From Pseudomonadota bacterium (lineage in GTDB: Bacteria; Pseudomonadota; Alphaproteobacteria; Acetobacterales; Acetobacteraceae), in the NCBI GenBank assembly GCA_021847995.1, contig JAJZNE010000137.1, positions 1-64,000 of the forward strand: a stretch of 64,000 bases of DNA, read 5' to 3'. The position numbers and the translations under genes are program-made. This document shows positions 8,710 to 17,742 of this stretch, one piece after another. The notes beneath the pieces were generated by a model that worked only from the letters and a program-made list of their open reading frames with translations, did not search any database and was not told the DNA's origin. Each line of letters begins with the position of its first letter. The stretch's first letter is position 1.

Positions 8710-9870
8710 ATGCCGACCCACGACGGACTCGCTTGGCGCAGCTTCCGTGGCGATTCCGGCGATGCGGAACATTCCATTATCGTCTCGGCCCCGCCCGACC
8801 TGCCGTTCGCGCGCCAGCTGGACGCGCTGGCCCAGCGCTATGCCGAGGCGGTGCAGTCCCTGCGGCTCGATCCGTCGAGCGCCGTGTTCCGCCGCTTCTT
8901 CCTGAGCGACGCCGCCAATCAGGCGGCCGCCCTGCGCGGCAGCGGCCTGTTTTCGGAACCGCTGGAAAGTCCGGTCGCCACCTCCATCGTCCAGCAGCCG
9001 CCCCTGCCGGGCGGGCGCATCGCGCTCCATGCCTACCATATCGAAAGCGACGAGGCGCTGACGAAGCGGGAGCTGGCGCCTGGCCACATGCTGCTGGAAA
9101 AGCGCGGCCTGGGGCATCTGTGGAGCACGCGGCTGTGCTCATCGCTGACCCAGCGGCAGCTTTCCGCGTCGGCGCAGACGCACGAGATGTTCGGCAAGCT
9201 GATCCAGACGCTCGCCGACAATGGCGGGACGCTGGCCGACAACTGTGTACGCACCTGGATCTACGTCAAGGATGTCGATGTCTTCTATCAGGAGATGGCG
9301 GAAGCACGCAGCGAGCTGTTCGCCCGTCACGGCCTGCTGCCGGAGACGCATTACCTGGCGAGCACCGGCATCGAGGGCGCCTGTGCGCACCGCTATGACG
9401 TGGTGCTGATGGACGCCTATTCGATCTTCGGCCTGCTGCCCGAGCAGGTCACGTACCTGAACGACTTTGCCCGCCTGTGCGCGACCAGGGATTATGGCAT
9501 CACCTTCGAGCGCGGCACCCGCATCGGCTACGCCGACCGCGCCCATGCCCTGATTTCCGGCACGGCCAGCATCGATGCCGCCGGACAGGTGGTGCATGTC
9601 GGCAACGTGGAGCGGCAGCTTGGGCGCGCGCTCGACAACGTTGCCGCGCTGCTTCGTGCCGGGGGCGCGGAACCGGAGTCGTTGCAGCATCTTCTGGTCT
9701 ATCTGCGCGATCCCGCCGACCAGCAGCGGATTGTGGCGATCCTTGCCGAACGTTTCCCGGACGTGCCCTGCCTTCTCCTCCGCGGGGCGGTGTGCCGCCC
9801 GGAATGGCTGGTGGAAGTCGAGGGCAATGCCTGTGTTGCGCAGCACGCACCCGACCTTCCCGCCTTCTGA
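8710..9870 (+). CDS. Two-domain Rid (YjgF/YER057c/UK114) family protein
   Basis: This 386-residue protein is about three times the length of RidA and appears to hold two Rid-fold halves. The N-terminal half has AVFRRFFLSDAANQ and the VQQPPLPGGRIALHAYHI segment typical of long Rid-family hydrolases. The C-terminal half has ALISGTASIDAAGQVVHVGNVERQLGRALDNVAALL, which is also reminiscent of chorismatase-type Rid proteins. Rid proteins hydrolyse reactive enamines/imines, while long members can act on chorismate; the activity here is unknown. It heads a set with two 2OG-Fe(II) oxygenases and sits downstream of a perfect FNR-type site. No secretion signal is visible. Confidence 0.75.
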   Translation: MPTHDGLAWRSFRGDSGDAEHSIIVSAPPDLPFARQLDALAQRYAEAVQSLRLDPSSAVFRRFFLSDAANQAAALRGSGLFSEPLESPVATSIVQQPPLPGGRIALHAYHIESDEALTKRELAPGHMLLEKRGLGHLWSTRLCSSLTQRQLSASAQTHEMFGKLIQTLADNGGTLADNCVRTWIYVKDVDVFYQEMAEARSELFARHGLLPETHYLASTGIEGACAHRYDVVLMDAYSIFGLLPEQVTYLNDFARLCATRDYGITFERGTRIGYADRAHALISGTASIDAAGQVVHVGNVERQLGRALDNVAALLRAGGAEPESLQHLLVYLRDPADQQRIVAILAERFPDVPCLLLRGAVCRPEWLVEVEGNACVAQHAPDLPAF

Positions 9871-9900
9871 GCAAGCCGCTTGCCGCGGCAGGAGCGAACC

Positions 9901-10590
9901 ATGCAGGACAGCAACGTGAAGCTCGGCATGCTCGACGAAGCGGCGATTGCCGCATGCGAGCTGCACCATGATCCGTACGACTACGCCTTCGTGCCGCAGG
10001 CGCTGCCGGCGCGGCTGAAGCAGGAGGTGCTGGCCGACGCGCCGCCGATTCCCGACCGCGGCAGCTACGCGCTGCCCGACCTGCAGTATGGCACGATGTT
10101 CGCCGCAGTGGTGCAGGATCTGCTGAGCGTCCGGTTCCGCCAACTGGTGGAGGCGAAGTTCGACATCGACCTCTCCGGCCGGCCACCCTGCATCGTCATG
10201 ATGGGCAACACCAGCGGCCACTACAACGAGGGTTATGCGCATCCCGACAGCCGGCACAAGATCGTCACCGTGCTGCTCGGCCTGTCGCGCGAATGGCCGT
10301 ATGAGCGCGGCCGGCTGCGTGTTCTGCGCAGCCCCGACCGCGACAACTACGCCTTCGAGTTCGCGCCGGAATTCGGCCGCATGCTGATGTTCCGCGTCAG
10401 CAGCCATTCCTGGCACGGCTTCCTGCCGCAGAAGGGTCAGCGCATGAGCCTGCAGCTGTGCTATGTCGATTCCGAGTGGTACGTGCGCAAGGAATACATG
10501 CGCCACCGTCTCAGCGCGCATGCCAAGTCGGTGCCGTTGCTCCGCCGCGTGATCGACTGGGCACCAAGGCGCCTGTCGGGCGGCGGCTGA
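9901..10590 (+). CDS. 2OG-Fe(II) dioxygenase family protein, copy 1
   Basis: This 229-residue protein has the double-stranded beta-helix facial triad: HPD (H114, D116) in NEGYAHPDSRHK, and the distal His in SSHSWHGF (H172), followed by R181 in QRMSLQLCY, the probable 2-oxoglutarate anchor. The layout resembles prolyl 4-hydroxylase-type enzymes that hydroxylate protein or peptide side chains. The start ATG at 9901 follows GGCAGGAGCGAACC. Its stop overlaps the next gene as TGATG. Two more enzymes of this class lie within 6 kb, near a repeat- and proline-rich secreted protein that could be a common substrate. Free metabolites remain possible substrates. Confidence 0.82.
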   Translation: MQDSNVKLGMLDEAAIAACELHHDPYDYAFVPQALPARLKQEVLADAPPIPDRGSYALPDLQYGTMFAAVVQDLLSVRFRQLVEAKFDIDLSGRPPCIVMMGNTSGHYNEGYAHPDSRHKIVTVLLGLSREWPYERGRLRVLRSPDRDNYAFEFAPEFGRMLMFRVSSHSWHGFLPQKGQRMSLQLCYVDSEWYVRKEYMRHRLSAHAKSVPLLRRVIDWAPRRLSGGG

Positions 10591-11267
10591 TGGAGTACCC
10601 GCCGCTGCCCACGACCGCCGAGGTCGCGGCACAATTCCGCACCGCGCTGCACGGCGCCGAGCGTGCAGACCGGCCCTACCGGCACTGGAAGCTGCGGGAC
10701 GTGTTCCCGCGCGATCTCTGCACCGGCATCCTGACCCTGCCGATCGCCCCGCCCCTGCTGGGCGAGACCGACGGCACGCGCGCGAGCTACAACGCCGCGC
10801 GCTGCTTCATCACGCCGGCGCTGCGCGCGCGGTTCCCGACCTGCGAGGTGCTTGCCGCCGCCCTGCAGCTTCCGGCGGTGGCAGCAGCACTCGCCGCGAC
10901 GCTCGCGGTGCCGGTCGCGGGCAGCTTCCTGCGCATGGAATACATCCAGGACATCGACGGCGCCTGGCTGGAGCCGCACCGCGACATCCCGGAAAAGCTG
11001 TTTTCGATGGTGGTCTATCTGTTCACCGGCCCCGACGCGGCCAACTGGGGCACCGACATCTACGATGCCGAACGGCGCTGGGTCGGCCGCTCCGCCGGGA
11101 CGTTCGATTCGGCCGTCATCTTCGTCCCCGGCCCCGACACCTGGCATGGCTTCGAGAAGCGCCGGATCAACGGGGTGCGGCGGCTGATGGAGATCAACTA
11201 CGTCCGCCCCACCTGGCGCGACCGTGACCAGCTCGCCGCGCCAGAAAGCCCGATCCAGGTCGGGTAG
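10590..11267 (+). CDS. 2OG-Fe(II) dioxygenase family protein, copy 2
   Basis: This 225-residue protein has a second, diverged 2OG oxygenase core: HRD (H130, D132) in WLEPHRDIPEKLFSMVVYL, distal His H186 in PGPDTWHGFEKR, and an Arg pair near 197 in GVRRLMEINYV. The two neighbouring enzymes are too different to be a recent duplication. The start overlaps the upstream stop by one base (TGATG), so the two are translated as a pair. The protein has no signal peptide and should act in the cytoplasm on a small molecule or a pre-export peptide. Confidence 0.82.
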   Translation: MEYPPLPTTAEVAAQFRTALHGAERADRPYRHWKLRDVFPRDLCTGILTLPIAPPLLGETDGTRASYNAARCFITPALRARFPTCEVLAAALQLPAVAAALAATLAVPVAGSFLRMEYIQDIDGAWLEPHRDIPEKLFSMVVYLFTGPDAANWGTDIYDAERRWVGRSAGTFDSAVIFVPGPDTWHGFEKRRINGVRRLMEINYVRPTWRDRDQLAAPESPIQVG

Positions 11268-11296: not shown

Positions 11297-13717
11297 TCAG
11301 ATCGGGCAGGCGCCGGCGGCGCATTCCAGATGCACCGCGTCCACGCCTTCCTCCCGCTCCGTCGTTGCGTCGATCGCCGCGGTGATGGCGGCGAAGCGTT
11401 CCGCCGACACATCCTCCTCCGGCAGGTATTCATAGCCGAGCAGATGGTCCGGCCGCATCGGCAGCACCGCGCAGCAGCGCACAAGCGGCTGCTCCGCCAG
11501 GACGATCGCGCGGAAGGCATCGAGCGTCACGCGGTCGGTTGCGATCTTGAGGGTGTAGCTCACCTGGTTGCCCTGCGCGGCACCGATCCAGTGACGCTCC
11601 AGCAGGCGCAGCCAGTGATAATGCTCCTGTGGCGTCGCCTCCGGCGCCGTCAGCAGGTTTCCGTCGAGGCCGAGGCGCAGGAGCAGTGCTTCGGTCGGGA
11701 AGCCGACGATGCTCATGCCTGGAAACCCGTGCAGCGTGCGCACCGGATAGCCCTGCCGCGCACAGGCGGGGAGCAGCGGATCGGCATCCGCCGGCCAGGT
11801 GCCGTCGGCGGCACGCGTGCCGCGGAACTGCACCCAGCGCAGATAGCGCCGCCGTGCCGGCAGATGCGCACCTTCGCTCAGACCGAACAGCTTGCTGGTG
11901 GTACCGGCGGGCTTCACGGTCGTCACCGTCACCGGCTCGGCCAGCCCGAGTTCGGCAGCATAGGCCGCGGCCTCCCGCTTGGCGGTCTCGGAGAGCTGCG
12001 CCAGCATGGCCCAGAACGGCGCCGCCCGCGTCTCGTCGAGCAGGTCGCGGAAGCCGAGGCCGAAGCGCATCCACGCCCATTCATGCAGGCCGGTGGGGCC
12101 GATTCCCATGCGGTTGGTGCGTGCCACTTCCTCGGCATAGAGCGCGTCCATGCGGTTCGCGCGCATCAGGAAGCGCACGCCGAGCCGCACCGCATCGGCC
12201 ACCCGCGCATCCCACAGCGCGGCGGCGGCGCGCGGCGGCGCGCCCGGGGGGAAGGCGTCGAAGGGCAGCGGGCAGGCGAGCAGCGGGGCGAAATCGGCGA
12301 TCACGCAATACCCGCCGGTGACGTGCAGCGCGATCTCGCCGCACGGATTGGTGGTGACGGGGAAGCAGGCCGACGCCGCCTGGCGGGAGAGCTGGGCGAT
12401 CAGGCCGGATGCGTCATCGACCCAATAGCGCGCGCTGCGCAGATCGCGACCGTCCTCGTGGACGGGCTTGTGCCAGGCGAAGCGAGTGCGGTGATCCTCC
12501 AGCGCGTCACCGTTGACGAACCCCGGCTCCCCGTTGGCGTAGGCGCAACGGGTGGCCTCGGCGAACACCGCCTCGGCGTGGCGGGCCAGTTCGGCACTGC
12601 GCGCGGGGTGCCGCGGCGCGGAATTGTCCGCAGCGCGCTGCAACGCCCAGAAGGTGCGGTCCACCATCACCGAATGGTTCGCGGTCCACAGGCCGCCGTC
12701 GGATTTGGCGCGGATGAAGCGCAGCACACCGGGATCGCGCCACGATTTGGTCGCCATCCGCGCCGACCGCCGTGCGCCGCCGACCTGAACTTCCATCGAC
12801 AGATAATGGTCCACGAGCAGCGCCTGTTCCCACGGCTGGAACAGATCGCCGGCCGGATCGCGGGCGCGGGCGGGCGCGATCACATGGTGCAGCAGGTTGA
12901 GGAAGGCGCGCAGCAGCGACAGCGGCCCCGACGCCGGCCGCCCCTGCATGCCGCGGATCGGCGCGCCGGCCGGGCGGACATCGCTGAGGTCAAGCAGCAG
13001 CGTCACCCCACGTTCGCGCCGGAATGCCATCGCCTCCAGCACCTCGACGGCCTTCGCCCACCCCTCGCGGCTGTCGGCGACACGGTGGTAGCGCGAAGCT
13101 GCCGGCGCCTCGGCCGGGTCGGTGAGCAGGCAGGCATCAAGACGCCGCAGCGCGGCCTGCGGATCAGCGGCGTCGAGCGTCGCGGCAAAGCGTTCCCGGG
13201 CCGCCGCATCGGCCGGGAAGTCGGGATGCGTGGGGGCGAGGCAGACGCGCAGATCGGGCGCCATCGCCCAGTCCACCGCGATCAGGTCGTCGTCATAGGA
13301 GCGCCCGACGCCGGAGCCGTTCATCAGCAGGTAGAACTTGGCGAAGGACGTGATGGCGGTGGCGCAGTTGGTGAACACCTCCATGTTGCGGGTCGGCTGG
13401 TCGGCATCGCCGTGCTGCAGATGCCGCCCGGAGGTGAGCAGCGCGCCGCTGGCGATGGCGTTGCGCAGCCGCGCCTGCTCCACCGCCGCCGCGGCGGCCT
13501 GCGCCGGCCCGAGCAAGGCGATGTTGCCGGCGGCCACCCGGTCGGCGACCCGCCCGAAATCCTCTGCATCCGCGGGGCGGAAAATCGTGCGGCGGGCAAC
13601 GGCGAGACCCATGCCGGAGTCGAGCGGCCGAGCCGGCAACGGCGCAGTACCGAACGCGGTCCCGGGCACGGCAGGCGCGGCCGGGCGATCGTGGGCCACC
13701 GGAAGACCAGCAAGCAT
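11297..13717 (-). CDS. nrdJ: Class II (adenosylcobalamin-dependent) ribonucleotide reductase, monomeric RTPR-like
   Basis: This 806-residue enzyme makes deoxyribonucleotides using adenosylcobalamin and does not need oxygen. The active-site motif TNPCGEIAL gives the thiyl-radical Cys (C459) and Glu (E461). C118 (MEVFTNCATA) and C471 (GGYCVIADF) fit the reducible pair. The C-terminal CAAGACPI (C799, C804) matches the redox shuttle tail of Lactobacillus-type RTPR. GGARRSARMATKSW and TVKPAGTTSKLFGLSEGAH are further family blocks. It is single on the minus strand, embedded between two rightward groups containing 2OG oxygenases. No N-terminal ATP-cone is evident. An NrdR-like box lies upstream; no cobalamin riboswitch was recognised. 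Confidence 0.85.
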   Translation of the reverse strand: MLAGLPVAHDRPAAPAVPGTAFGTAPLPARPLDSGMGLAVARRTIFRPADAEDFGRVADRVAAGNIALLGPAQAAAAAVEQARLRNAIASGALLTSGRHLQHGDADQPTRNMEVFTNCATAITSFAKFYLLMNGSGVGRSYDDDLIAVDWAMAPDLRVCLAPTHPDFPADAAARERFAATLDAADPQAALRRLDACLLTDPAEAPAASRYHRVADSREGWAKAVEVLEAMAFRRERGVTLLLDLSDVRPAGAPIRGMQGRPASGPLSLLRAFLNLLHHVIAPARARDPAGDLFQPWEQALLVDHYLSMEVQVGGARRSARMATKSWRDPGVLRFIRAKSDGGLWTANHSVMVDRTFWALQRAADNSAPRHPARSAELARHAEAVFAEATRCAYANGEPGFVNGDALEDHRTRFAWHKPVHEDGRDLRSARYWVDDASGLIAQLSRQAASACFPVTTNPCGEIALHVTGGYCVIADFAPLLACPLPFDAFPPGAPPRAAAALWDARVADAVRLGVRFLMRANRMDALYAEEVARTNRMGIGPTGLHEWAWMRFGLGFRDLLDETRAAPFWAMLAQLSETAKREAAAYAAELGLAEPVTVTTVKPAGTTSKLFGLSEGAHLPARRRYLRWVQFRGTRAADGTWPADADPLLPACARQGYPVRTLHGFPGMSIVGFPTEALLLRLGLDGNLLTAPEATPQEHYHWLRLLERHWIGAAQGNQVSYTLKIATDRVTLDAFRAIVLAEQPLVRCCAVLPMRPDHLLGYEYLPEEDVSAERFAAITAAIDATTEREEGVDAVHLECAAGACPI

Positions 13718-13767
13718 CGGCGATTCCTTCGGGGTTCGCTACATCTTGTCCAATCTGGCCAAATTTT

Positions 13768-13783
13768 ACACCATATATAGCAT
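13768..13783. promoter_or_regulatory. NrdR-like box upstream of nrdJ
   Basis: ACACCATATATAGCAT agrees with the NrdR consensus ACACNATATATNGTGT at all but two of the defined positions. It sits 51 bp upstream of the nrdJ start, in one of the few A/T-rich stretches of the region. NrdR usually binds two such boxes about 31 bp apart. A convincing second box was not found, so the site may be partial or weak. It also lies 146 bp from the divergent repeat-protein gene. Confidence 0.5.
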
Positions 13784-13928
13784 CCTGGCTGCCTTGCGCG
13801 CGGCTCATGGGCATCGGCACGGAACGATCGTGTGCGGGGCGATGCGCCCGCGGGGCCGCAGGCCGGTTCGAAACGCTTGCGCTTTCCTTGTGGTACAGGT
13901 ACGGTTGGCGCCAGTTCGAGGGGCGGCG

Positions 13929-14522
13929 ATGGAACAGGGCGACATTCCGGAACTGCTGCTGGCCAGCGTGGATCAGACCCGCCGCGCCTTCGTGCGCCGG
14001 CTGGTCATCGGCAGCGGATTCGCCAGCCCGCTCGTCTCCTCCTTCACCATGGGTGGCAGCGCGCAGGCGCAAGGCCTGAGTCCCCGCCCGGGAGGGCCGC
14101 TTCTGGGCAATATCGGCGGCCCGGCCCGGGGCAATATCGGCGGCCCGCTCAGCGGCAATCTGATCACTCCTATCAAATCCAACATCCACGGCCCCAAAAA
14201 GGGCAATATCGGCAGCCCGCTCGGGGGCAATCTGACATCGCCGATCACTGTACCGTCCCCGTCGCCCCCGCCGTCACCATCGCCTGTTCCGTCCCCCGCG
14301 CCTTCCCCATCACCGCCGCCCGCTCCGCCACCCGCGCCGTCCCCCGGATCGACGCCGCCTTCCGGGCCCGGTCCGTCCGGTGCTGTCCCCGAGCCGGCGA
14401 CCGCGCTCCTGCTCGGCAGCGGCGTTGCGCTGGCCGGCGGCGCGGTGCTGGCGCAGCGGGTGCGCGCCCGCGTCCGGCAAATGCTGGAAAAATGGGCCGA
14501 CGACGGGGACACCACGTCCTAG
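13929..14522 (+). CDS. Octapeptide-repeat protein with twin-arginine leader and PEP-CTERM-like anchor
   Basis: I do not recognise this 197-residue protein as a described family. Residues 18-48 form a twin-arginine-like signal (TRRAFVRRLVIGSGF, ending AQAQG). Residues 60-107 are six consecutive 8-residue repeats with consensus [GS]N[IL]x[GST]Pxx. Residues 108-150 form a Pro/Ser-rich linker of (S/A)P and PPP blocks. Residues 153-183 are VPEPATALLLGSGVALAGG followed by an Arg-rich tail, close to the PEP-CTERM sorting signal, although here a further 14 residues follow. The likely fate is export and envelope anchoring. The next gene overlaps it, and a third 2OG oxygenase follows. No exosortase gene is in the window. 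The ribosome-binding site is GAGGGGCGGCG. Confidence 0.75.
   Translation: MEQGDIPELLLASVDQTRRAFVRRLVIGSGFASPLVSSFTMGGSAQAQGLSPRPGGPLLGNIGGPARGNIGGPLSGNLITPIKSNIHGPKKGNIGSPLGGNLTSPITVPSPSPPPSPSPVPSPAPSPSPPPAPPPAPSPGSTPPSGPGPSGAVPEPATALLLGSGVALAGGAVLAQRVRARVRQMLEKWADDGDTTS
14106..14249 (+). repeat. Six in-frame 24 bp repeats encoding octapeptides
   Basis: Six consecutive 24 bp units encode GNIGGPAR, GNIGGPLS, GNLITPIK, SNIHGPKK, GNIGSPLG and GNLTSPIT. Every unit has Asn at position 2, Ile/Leu at 3 and Pro at 6, with no gaps. The DNA units have diverged more than the peptide pattern, which argues for selection on the protein repeat rather than a recent expansion. Confidence 0.85.
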
Positions 14523-15814
14523 CGCCGCGCTGGGCGGCACGGGCGCTGGTGGCCGTTGCCGTCGCCGTTGCGCTGTCCGGCGTCGCGGTATGGCGGCCAT
14601 GGCGTCCCGCACCCCCCTCCGTTGCCGCGATCGAATGCGCCGTTGCCGCCGGTGACACCGGTTCGGTGCTGCGTCTTGCTGCCGCGCGATTGCGCCGCCG
14701 CGCGGCCGATCCGCCGCTGCTCGATGTGCTCGCCACCGTGTCCGTCGGGCTGATCGAAGATGCGGGTGGCGCCGGCGTGGCACCCGATGTCGCGGCGGCG
14801 GTGCGCACCATCGCGTTCGTGCTGCATGGTGACCTGTCGCAGGGCAGCAGCGGCGCGCGGGTCGCCGAACTGGCCGGCCGGTTCGCGCTGCTGGCCGGCA
14901 ACGACGACATGGGCCTGTCCGACCTGGCGCGGGCCGAGGCGCGCGGCGCCGGGCCGGCCGGGCTCGCCGTTCCCCGCGCGCTCGCGCTGCTGCGTCTGGA
15001 GCGCTTCGCCGAGGCGGTGCAGGCCGCACGGTCCGACGCGACGCTTTCGCCGCCGCACCGCGCCGCGCTGCTGATCCTGCGGGCCCGCGGCGAACTCGGC
15101 CTGTCGCAGGTGGCGGCGGCGCGGGCGAGTCTGCTTGCGGCGCTGGCACTCGACCCCGCCGCGGTCGATGCGGTGGCCCGGCTCGGCCTGCTGGCCCTGT
15201 GGCGGGACCATGATACGGCGGCAGCGGCCGAACTGCTCGGGCATGCCCGCCGCCTCGCCCCCGATGCGGTGCCGACGCTGCGGCTCGCCGGGGAATACGC
15301 CTATGCCACTGGCGATTATGCCGCCAGCGCAGCGGCGTATGGCGCGCTGGCACGAAGCGGCACGGCGGAGGCGTTCGATCCGGTGCCGGCCAGCCTGGGG
15401 GCGGCACGCGCCCTGATCTATGTCGGCGACCTGGCCGGTGCCCGCGCCGCGCTGGATGCCGCGCCGCTGCCGGCCGAGGATCCGTCGCTGCGCTATGATC
15501 GCGCCCTGCTCGCCTATCGCGGCGGCGACTTCAACCAGGCGGTGGCACTGGCGCGTGCGCTCACCTATGTCTGGCGCGACTATCCGCCGCTCGATCTGTT
15601 GCTGGGCGGTGCCCTGCTCGCCGCCGGCTATCCGGCCTCCGCGGCGGCGCGCCTTGGCCATTACGTGGCGCAGTTTCAGGGCGATGCCGCCGCGCGGGGG
15701 CTACTCGACGCCGCGGAGCATGGCGTACCCGCATCGCCGCAGACATTGCAGACAGCCCTTGGCTTTCCCCTCTCGCAGGCCAACGGCAGCACGGACCGGA
15801 GTGGGCCGAGATGA
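14492..15814 (+). CDS. Membrane-anchored tetratricopeptide-repeat protein
   Basis: This 440-residue Ala-rich protein has one N-terminal membrane segment (about 17-33, AARALVAVAVAVALSGVAVW) after basic residues, followed by helical repeats of TPR type through about residue 420. Examples are LRLERFAEAVQAARSDATLSP, AARASLLAALALDPAAVDAVARLGLL and YDRALLAYRGGDFNQAVALARAL. It probably scaffolds a complex at the periplasmic face. The ATG at 14492 overlaps the repeat-protein gene by 31 bp; a GTG at 14549 is an alternative that removes the basic N-terminus. Its stop overlaps the next start (ATGA), so repeat protein, TPR protein and oxygenase look like one operon. Confidence 0.75.
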   Translation: MGRRRGHHVLAPRWAARALVAVAVAVALSGVAVWRPWRPAPPSVAAIECAVAAGDTGSVLRLAAARLRRRAADPPLLDVLATVSVGLIEDAGGAGVAPDVAAAVRTIAFVLHGDLSQGSSGARVAELAGRFALLAGNDDMGLSDLARAEARGAGPAGLAVPRALALLRLERFAEAVQAARSDATLSPPHRAALLILRARGELGLSQVAAARASLLAALALDPAAVDAVARLGLLALWRDHDTAAAAELLGHARRLAPDAVPTLRLAGEYAYATGDYAASAAAYGALARSGTAEAFDPVPASLGAARALIYVGDLAGARAALDAAPLPAEDPSLRYDRALLAYRGGDFNQAVALARALTYVWRDYPPLDLLLGGALLAAGYPASAAARLGHYVAQFQGDAAARGLLDAAEHGVPASPQTLQTALGFPLSQANGSTDRSGPR

Positions 15815-16623
15815 ACGACACGATGGGATCGCAGGCGGTGCAGCTGCGGGTCGAGGCGCTGATGGGCCGCGCGCTCGATACCCTGGAGGCGCTGCTCACC
15901 GATCCGGCACTGCCGGCCGACCGGCGCGCCGAACTCGCGCTCCGTCTGCTCGATATCGCCCTGGTGGGAGAGCCGGGTGCGACGCCGCCCACACCGCCCG
16001 CCGGTCTGCTGCCGGCACGCTGCTTCACCATCCGTGACTTCCTTCCGCCTGACCTGCATGCGGCGGCGGTGACGGCGGCGGAGCAGTTGCGCGACCGCTT
16101 CGTCGCCTCCGGCGTCACCAGCGGCGAGGCCGGCTACCGCCGCTCCCGCGTGCTGTTCGAGGATGCCATGCCGGCGCTCTACCAGGCGATGTGCCAGGAG
16201 ATCGCGACGGCACTGCCGGCGATCGGCACCGCACTTCTGCGGCCCGGCTTCGCCCCCGGCCATGTCGAGATGCAGATGACGGTGCATGGCGACGGCGATT
16301 TCTTCCGGATTCACAATGACAATGCCGGGCCGGAGATCGCGTATCGGGAGATCACCTTCGTCTATTATTTCCTGCTCCGCCAGCCCTGCGGCTTCCACGG
16401 CGGCGCGCTGCGCCTCTATGAGACGATGGCCGCCGAGCCGCCGCACTTCGATCCCGACCGTTACGCCGACATCGTGCCCGAAGACAACATGATCGTGTTC
16501 TTCGACAGCCGCCTGATGCACGAGGTGCTGAAGCTGGACGTTCCCTCCGGCATGTTCGAGGACGCGCGCTTCACCCTCAATGGCTGGCTGCACGCACGGC
16601 GCCCGGCGGCGCCGGCGGGGTAA
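15811..16623 (+). CDS. 2OG-Fe(II) dioxygenase family protein, copy 3
   Basis: This 270-residue protein has a helical N-terminal part (1-60) followed by a 2OG oxygenase domain of prolyl 4-hydroxylase type. The triad is HND (H168, D170) in FFRIHNDNAGPEIAYREITFVYYFL and H237 in DSRLMHEVLKL, with R253 in DARFTLNGWLH as the probable 2-oxoglutarate ligand. GGALRLYE is the usual strand between them. It is coupled to the TPR gene by an ATGA overlap. The operon position next to the octapeptide-repeat protein makes that protein its first candidate substrate, with Pro or Asn as targets. This is inferred, not shown. Confidence 0.84.
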   Translation: MNDTMGSQAVQLRVEALMGRALDTLEALLTDPALPADRRAELALRLLDIALVGEPGATPPTPPAGLLPARCFTIRDFLPPDLHAAAVTAAEQLRDRFVASGVTSGEAGYRRSRVLFEDAMPALYQAMCQEIATALPAIGTALLRPGFAPGHVEMQMTVHGDGDFFRIHNDNAGPEIAYREITFVYYFLLRQPCGFHGGALRLYETMAAEPPHFDPDRYADIVPEDNMIVFFDSRLMHEVLKLDVPSGMFEDARFTLNGWLHARRPAAPAG

Positions 16624-16638
16624 GCCCCCGCATCTGGC

Positions 16639-17349
16639 TCAGGCGCCGACGCCGGGGCGGTGCGCGAGCCTGATTGCGTTTCGCCATGCGTCGAGCGACC
16701 GGCGCAAACGCCGCTCATACGCCTCCCGGACCAACCTTCTGTCGGCCTTTCCGATTCCGTTACAGATGTCACGATTCTCGGCCAGCGAATCCTCGACCCG
16801 GTGCCGCATCACCTCGAAGACAGCGGTTGAAGAGTATTGCCACACCTGATCCCAGAGATGCTGTATGTGCTGCGAGAGGAACGCATTCCGGCACGGCGCG
16901 TAAATCGCGCCGGCAAATTCCCGGTTCTTGAGCGCGAACTCGACCAAGTCTTCCGTGAGTTTCTCCATCTGCGACAGGATCTCAAGCGCGGACGCGAGCG
17001 ACAGGCGGTCGTGGAAAGGTAGCGCCGCAAGCGCGGCCGAGCATTCCAGGATCATGCGCACTTCGGTTATCTCAAGCGCCCGCTCGAACGACAGGGCGGC
17101 CACCTGTGCGCCGCGATGCAGATGGATGGTCACCAGACCGTCCTTCTCAAGCTGGCGCAATGCGTCGCGAACCGGCATTTCACTCAGGTCGAGGCTGCGG
17201 GCGATCTGGGAAAGCCGCAGCCATTCGCCCGGTTGGTACACGCCATCCAGGATCCGCCGCCGCAGCACGGTATAGACGTGCCCTGCCTTGGAATAGGCGG
17301 TCGGCGTATCCTCCGGCTCCGGCCGGCTCCGATCGAGGATCAGGCTCAT
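16639..17349 (-). CDS. GntR-family transcriptional regulator, FCD type
   Basis: This 236-residue regulator has a winged helix (about 25-95) with LSQIARSLDLSEMPVRDALRQLEKDGLVTIHLHRGAQV and a C-terminal FCD ligand domain (about 100-225). It is divergent from the isochorismatase-headed catabolic operon, 393 bp away, with the TGATATC dyad between them, so it is the likely local repressor of that operon. The start MSLILDRS is preceded by GGAGGCGAGG. The longer open frame upstream is low-complexity and lacks domain similarity. Confidence 0.85.
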   Translation of the reverse strand: MSLILDRSRPEPEDTPTAYSKAGHVYTVLRRRILDGVYQPGEWLRLSQIARSLDLSEMPVRDALRQLEKDGLVTIHLHRGAQVAALSFERALEITEVRMILECSAALAALPFHDRLSLASALEILSQMEKLTEDLVEFALKNREFAGAIYAPCRNAFLSQHIQHLWDQVWQYSSTAVFEVMRHRVEDSLAENRDICNGIGKADRRLVREAYERRLRRSLDAWRNAIRLAHRPGVGA

Positions 17350-17742
17350 GCGCGGCCTCGCCTCCGCGGGCGGGGGAAGTCCGGCGGCTTTGGCGGCGGC
17401 ATCCTGTGCCGGCGTTGCCTGTGGCCGCGATCGGTTCGAGCGCAACAACGACGTTCCTTTCGTCTGCGGACCTGCCGTCCGCCCGACCCGGCGCACCCGG
17501 CCACGCCGCGACAGGTCGGCATTCCCTGGCCGGGCGAGGCTTGACGGCCCCGCCAAAGCCGGATCAGATCAGATCGGAGTAAATGATATCAGATATCAGA
17601 CCGGGGCGGTAGGCAAGGATGGCGAAGGCGGCGCGCCAATGCGATGTCGGCTGAGGCCGGAGCGGCCTTCCGACCGGGCGGAGGGGTACCGGAACCGCGA
17701 CCGGCCCGCCGCTGCCGGTCTGACGCTGGAAGAGGAGCGCAA
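17350..17742. other. Divergent intergenic control region
   Basis: This 393 bp stretch separates the FCD-GntR gene from the isochorismatase gene and holds no convincing gene. Visible elements are TTGACG at 17541-17546 as a possible -35 hexamer, the direct repeats GATCAGATCAGATC at 17562-17575, and the palindrome at 17584-17598. Promoters of both divergent units probably lie here. Confidence 0.5.
17584..17598. promoter_or_regulatory. Palindromic operator of FCD/GntR type, site 3
   Basis: TGATATCAGATATCA is a perfect 15 bp palindrome apart from its central base. It lies 144 bp before the isochorismatase ATG and 234 bp before the divergent GntR start. The ends TGATAT..ATATCA match the dyads around the other FCD-GntR gene at 1.6-2.5 kb. 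Binding by the adjacent regulator is inferred. Confidence 0.55.

Follow-up and report, generated by a model that had tools for sequence, protein, structure and literature searches.

The three genes studied here lie in a window of 64,000 nucleotides, the whole stretch of DNA that was analysed; it belongs to contig C71 of a draft genome that is 94% complete and comprises 4.27 Mb in 189 contigs. The first plus-strand gene (13929..14522) codes for a repeat protein of 197 aa and is supported as an ORF by matches to PF07589 and TIGR02595 above their cut-offs and by codon-position GC. It is followed on the same strand by genes for a 440-aa TPR-like protein (14492..15814; TPR_19 and TIGR02917 matches) and for a 270-aa oxygenase (15811..16623) identified by PF13640, its HxD..H..R residues and its predicted fold. 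The repeat-protein and TPR genes overlap by 31 nt and the TPR and oxygenase genes by 4 nt (ATGA), in agreement with the original prediction of three overlapping genes, whose coordinates hold. Overlapping and isolated between two minus-strand genes assigned by profile searches, a class II ribonucleotide reductase (RNR)-like gene upstream (11297-13717) and a GntR/FCD regulator gene downstream (16639-17556), the three genes look like one operon and are presumably expressed from one transcript. The GC content of the operon, 0.722 against a window mean of 0.698, corresponds to native composition, and codon-position GC of the repeat gene and of the operon agrees with coding. A GAGGGG stretch is found ~7 nt 5' of the repeat-gene ATG. 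No Rfam family and no promoter-like or terminator-like site was found at the locus; sigma-54 -24/-12 motifs gave chance-level matches, none of them between the RNR-like gene and the repeat gene (13718-13928).

The upstream flanking gene, on the minus strand, codes for a divergent adenosylcobalamin-dependent RNR that scores 186 bits on TIGR02505, where the cut-off is 340. Upstream of it lies a separate plus-strand cluster (8710-11267) whose first gene is chorismatase/RidA-like and matches the FkbO/Hyg5 model below its cut-off (E 5e-9). The cluster includes two more 2OG-Fe(II) oxygenase-like genes (9880-10590 and 10587-11267) that code for an HxD motif and a distal His.

The octapeptide-repeat protein and its PEP-CTERM tail

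The repeat protein carries a Tat-like signal TRRAFVRRLVIGSGFASPLVSSFTMGGSAQA (13974..14075, plus strand), recognised by inspection of the sequence alone from the twin-arginine-like motif TRRAFVR followed by AQA, with a helix predicted at residues 6-30. Cleavage after AQA is probable on the same ground. The other PEP-CTERM proteins of the genome that were read have Sec-like leaders lacking a twin-arginine-like motif.

Six gapless 24-bp units (14106..14249, plus strand), located with a DNA pattern, encode [GS]N[IL]x[GST]Pxx in register over residues 60-107, the octapeptides starting at residues 60, 68, 76, 84, 92 and 100. They are followed by a Pro/Ser-rich linker (14250..14381, plus strand) in which TRF detects imperfect repeats of 36 bp and 12 bp. 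When the sequence was shuffled 20,000 times with its composition kept, no version had more than two motif matches (mean 0.04), against the six observed, and a two-unit DNA pattern occurs three times in the window with zero expected. The six gapless repeats and the Pro/Ser linker announced earlier are borne out. Units 1, 2 and 5 are near-identical at the DNA level while units 3, 4 and 6 diverged and retained N and P. This retention, with three different Pro codons (CCG four times, CCT, CCC) and two Asn codons (AAT five times, AAC), suggests that selection acts on N and P of the octapeptide.

The repeat protein has no recognisable counterpart in what was searched. A DNA pattern requiring three strict octapeptide units gave 29 stretches in ~85,000 genomes, none with the architecture of the repeat protein; those bearing repeats encode low-complexity proteins without relation to it, for instance (GNIGFPKP)n in Bacillales. 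The full-length protein found no credible homologue in 200 genomes of the family. Matches in 21 other family genomes (E 1e-6 to 7e-4) were rejected, those read being Pro-rich or antisense low-complexity sequences, and the leader and repeats alone as query gave fragments with a best E of 1e-3. This lack of homologues would fit with the repeat and linker being relaxed low-complexity sequence, expanded by slippage and left unmodified, whose units serve for spacing alone. The near-identical units 1, 2 and 5, the short imperfect repeats detected by TRF and the predicted disorder of the region point in the same direction. We regard this explanation as improbable, the three diverged units having kept N and P partly by different codons.

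AlphaFold run on the single sequence predicts two terminal helices and low-confidence coil for the repeats and linker, which gives no support for a folded repeat domain. It also weakens the earlier argument that the Tat pathway, moving folded proteins, would leave room for modification before export. The predicted disorder would make the repeat region accessible.

The C-terminus consists of a PEP-CTERM tail VPEPATALLLGSGVALAGGAVLAQRVRAR and a ~20-residue extension (14382..14519, plus strand; predicted helix 156-194). Residues 152-177 have VPEP, a transmembrane segment and an Arg cluster and reach 20.9 bits on PF07589 and 18.9 bits on TIGR02595, above the respective cut-offs of 20.7 and 16, as expected for a PEP-CTERM sorting domain. 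PEP-CTERM tails usually stop soon after the Arg cluster, a habit outside the model definition, and the other tails read in this genome extend by a few residues; this one continues for ~20. Of the leader and anchor first described as twin-arginine and VPEP-type, both motifs are therefore recognisable and the tail passes the cut-offs, with the reservations that the tail is extended and that inspection alone identifies the leader as Tat-like.

The draft genome codes for 22-23 PEP-CTERM tails above cut-off. The exosortase search proposed with the original prediction was negative all the same, PF09721 giving no match in the 94%-complete draft. Exosortase is present in 75 of 200 genomes of the family, including one species of the same genus, and in the sister genome G194 a stretch ~6 kb from the exosortase gene aligns to the start of contig C59 of our draft. 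The simplest reading is that the exosortase gene sits in an unassembled part of the draft.

The TPR protein and the oxygenase

A single strong transmembrane segment (residues 15-33, hydropathy 2.18) near the N-terminus of the TPR protein agrees with the earlier description of a membrane protein; the TPR assignment by Pfam is weak (TPR_19, E 0.006). More positive charge precedes the segment than follows it, a bias indicating that the TPRs are probably periplasmic and the protein anchored in the inner membrane. Its best NCBIfam match is the PrsT model TIGR02917 (E 2.5e-15), with 55.5 bits against a cut-off of 312. A PrsT protein would exceed 312 bits and carry a lipoprotein signal; this protein has a transmembrane anchor and no lipobox. 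We do not assign it to PrsT because the score is far under the cut-off and unrelated TPR proteins, used as control, likewise score first on this model. Since the TPRs seem to be periplasmic, they probably do not present a substrate to a cytoplasmic oxygenase, which weakens the earlier idea that the two proteins act jointly.

Neither a transmembrane nor a signal segment is present in the oxygenase. It matches PF13640 (E 9e-14), and all 11 rows of an alignment share H168, D170, H237 and R253, the HxD..H..R set being intact. The model built from this alignment (pLDDT 82) has P. putida P4H as best solved match (E 8e-13, 22% identity), followed by PHD2-type enzymes and TPA1; a PDB sequence search also matched TPA1. 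The predicted DSBH fold together with the HxD..H..R residues agrees with a 2OG-Fe(II) prolyl hydroxylase of the P4H/PHD-like type. Sequence, predicted fold and invariant residues thus converge on the prolyl-hydroxylase-like oxygenase first proposed. Its top solved match is the prolyl-4-hydroxylase of P. putida acting on EF-Tu, and the substrates of the nearest folds are EF-Tu, HIF and uS12. PF13640 members also act on small molecules and on other proteins.

Five of the ten class relatives of the oxygenase adjoin Asn-synthetase-like and/or PqqD genes, most of them also a sulfotransferase-like gene, and four of the ten carry TPRs within the oxygenase protein itself. Since the model is nearest to protein prolyl hydroxylases and half of the relatives are found in peptide-modification clusters, a peptide or protein substrate is plausible.

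Distribution of the genes and relation to known systems

The check suggested initially, that octapeptide proteins would co-occur with the TPR and oxygenase genes, brought no second case in limited samples. Of 385 alphaproteobacterial genomes sampled, with a capped number of candidates scored in each, 11 gave the oxygenase and 7 the TPR protein; the present genome alone has both. Four class-level relatives of the TPR protein that were checked are true PrsT proteins, and no credible homologue of it was found in the other four genomes of the genus; a search of plasmids gave none either. A phylum-wide search for the oxygenase detected one other genome of 398 (E 1e-15), and peptide patterns run across genome contigs confirmed no relative. 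The neighbourhoods of the oxygenase relatives contain no match to the TPR protein or the octapeptide and no C-terminal PEP motif.

An ordinary PEP-CTERM/TPR surface pair, with an oxygenase that is merely co-transcribed and has some other substrate, be it a translation protein, a RiPP-like peptide or a small molecule, is a serious possibility, not far short of an even chance. It would agree with the activity of the nearest folds on EF-Tu, HIF and uS12 and with the occurrence of oxygenase relatives away from TPR-protein, octapeptide and PEP-CTERM neighbours. PEP-CTERM and TPR pairs are also known without an oxygenase (PMC1569441, PMC9850573). The 4-nt overlap within a single isolated unit between opposite-strand genes speaks against this reading, and the operon encodes no alternative candidate substrate.

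PEP-CTERM/exosortase (EpsH) sorting and the pairing of PEP-CTERM genes with TPR genes were described by Haft et al. (2006, PMC1569441), who proposed that TPRs may steer covalent modification, and the pepA-prsT pair of Aquincola tertiaricarbonis is involved in floc formation (PMC9850573). The operon shares with PEP-CTERM/PrsT systems the adjoining PEP-CTERM and TPR genes and the many tails in the genome. It differs by a Tat-like instead of a Sec leader, by a 440-aa TPR protein that is no lipoprotein and scores far under the PrsT cut-off, by the extra oxygenase gene, by a draft lacking exosortase and by an upstream gap lacking -24/-12. The gene set is therefore not as undescribed as first claimed: PEP-CTERM genes beside TPR genes are published, and the new parts are the oxygenase, the Tat-like leader and the octapeptides, which are without precedent in what was searched. 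A full-text literature search for PEP-CTERM, exosortase and hydroxylase returned nothing relevant, judged by title and abstract.

The oxygenase resembles P. putida P4H/PPHD, the EF-Tu enzyme, in its DSBH fold, its HxD..H..R set and as top structural match, but is only 22% identical to it, has a helical N-terminal extension and lies in another gene context. TPR-2OG fusions of alphaproteobacteria (L082, L084, L086 and L087) have a homologous catalytic domain (~28-35% identity) joined to TPRs, whereas the TPR protein here is separate and membrane-anchored. CanE, a 2OG oxygenase of a lasso-peptide cluster, hydroxylates a linear precursor peptide (PMC9266682). Relatives of our oxygenase adjoin Asn-synthetase-like, PqqD and sulfotransferase genes as in CanE clusters, while the partner protein here carries export and sorting signals. 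A reading of the repeat protein as a RiPP precursor was rejected, the operon having no cyclase, protease or PqqD gene and being flanked by class II RNR and GntR genes. The precedent of CanE, which beta-hydroxylates Asp (PMC9266682), is relevant to the alternative in which hydroxylation by the oxygenase falls on the invariant octapeptide Asn and not on Pro. All six Asn of the repeat protein fall inside octapeptides, at the same repeat position. We consider such an activity quite improbable, the fold neighbours being prolyl hydroxylases and not aspartyl/asparaginyl hydroxylases.

A possible proline hydroxylation before export

Our tentative preference, at a likelihood clearly below even, is for an operon, specific to the lineage, that makes a PEP-CTERM surface protein and an accessory prolyl-hydroxylase-like enzyme; the latter would most likely hydroxylate proline of the repeat protein before export. 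The repeat protein would be synthesised in the cytoplasm, where the oxygenase would most likely hydroxylate proline of the octapeptides or of the Pro/Ser linker, with GNIGGPARGNIGGPLS and linker peptides as candidate substrates. The Tat-like leader would then direct export and be cut off after AQA, the C-terminal helix would hold the protein, and an exosortase encoded outside the assembled draft would receive it. The TPR protein would, on the model of PrsT next to PEP-CTERM genes, aid handling or assembly of the exported protein by its periplasmic TPRs. We infer the export route, the TPR topology and role and the location of the exosortase gene; hydroxylation of the repeat protein is our hypothesis and, before export, a plausible one. 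With the TPR protein in the periplasm and the oxygenase in the cytoplasm a joint complex is probably not formed, and the oxygenase would need to act before export.

The tight gene overlaps, the PEP-CTERM tail, the exosortases of the family, the P4H-like fold and the CanE precedent count for the favoured operon reading, together with the oxygenase lacking a signal segment, the accessible repeats and the PEP-CTERM/TPR pair of Aquincola. Against it count the single occurrence of the trio, whose genes may be neighbours by chance in this one draft, the lack of an exosortase in the draft and the non-specific PrsT match. SP/PP linkers, moreover, occur widely in surface proteins where there is no hydroxylase. 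In the stricter version, which we hold to be unlikely, the prolyl hydroxylase is dedicated to the tandem-octapeptide protein and modifies it in the cytoplasm, ahead of Tat export and exosortase sorting; if true, the surface protein would bear hydroxyproline, in analogy to collagen or extensin. A hydroxylated repeat protein would connect PEP-CTERM surface sorting with a modification dependent on oxygen and 2OG, a connection on which a full-text literature search found no paper, and the operon, being small and testable, would offer access to hydroxyproline in bacterial surface proteins.

Loci L083, L085, L088, L089 and L090 of alphaproteobacteria are apparent lasso-type clusters that combine an oxygenase relative with Asn-synthetase-like, PqqD, ATP-grasp and sulfotransferase genes in various ways. 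On a plasmid of Azospirillum oryzae (L038, 1-9903), three genes in tandem bear the annotation tail fiber protein and lie near genes for a cupin, two 2OG oxygenases, an Asn synthetase and lasso B2/PqqD-like proteins; they possibly code for modified surface fibres. In a plasmid of Eleftheria terrae (L036, 2949-16510) an oxygenase relative lies near an Asp/Asn beta-hydroxylase and a sulfotransferase, with a PEP-CTERM gene ~6 kb off, the sole one seen near any relative.
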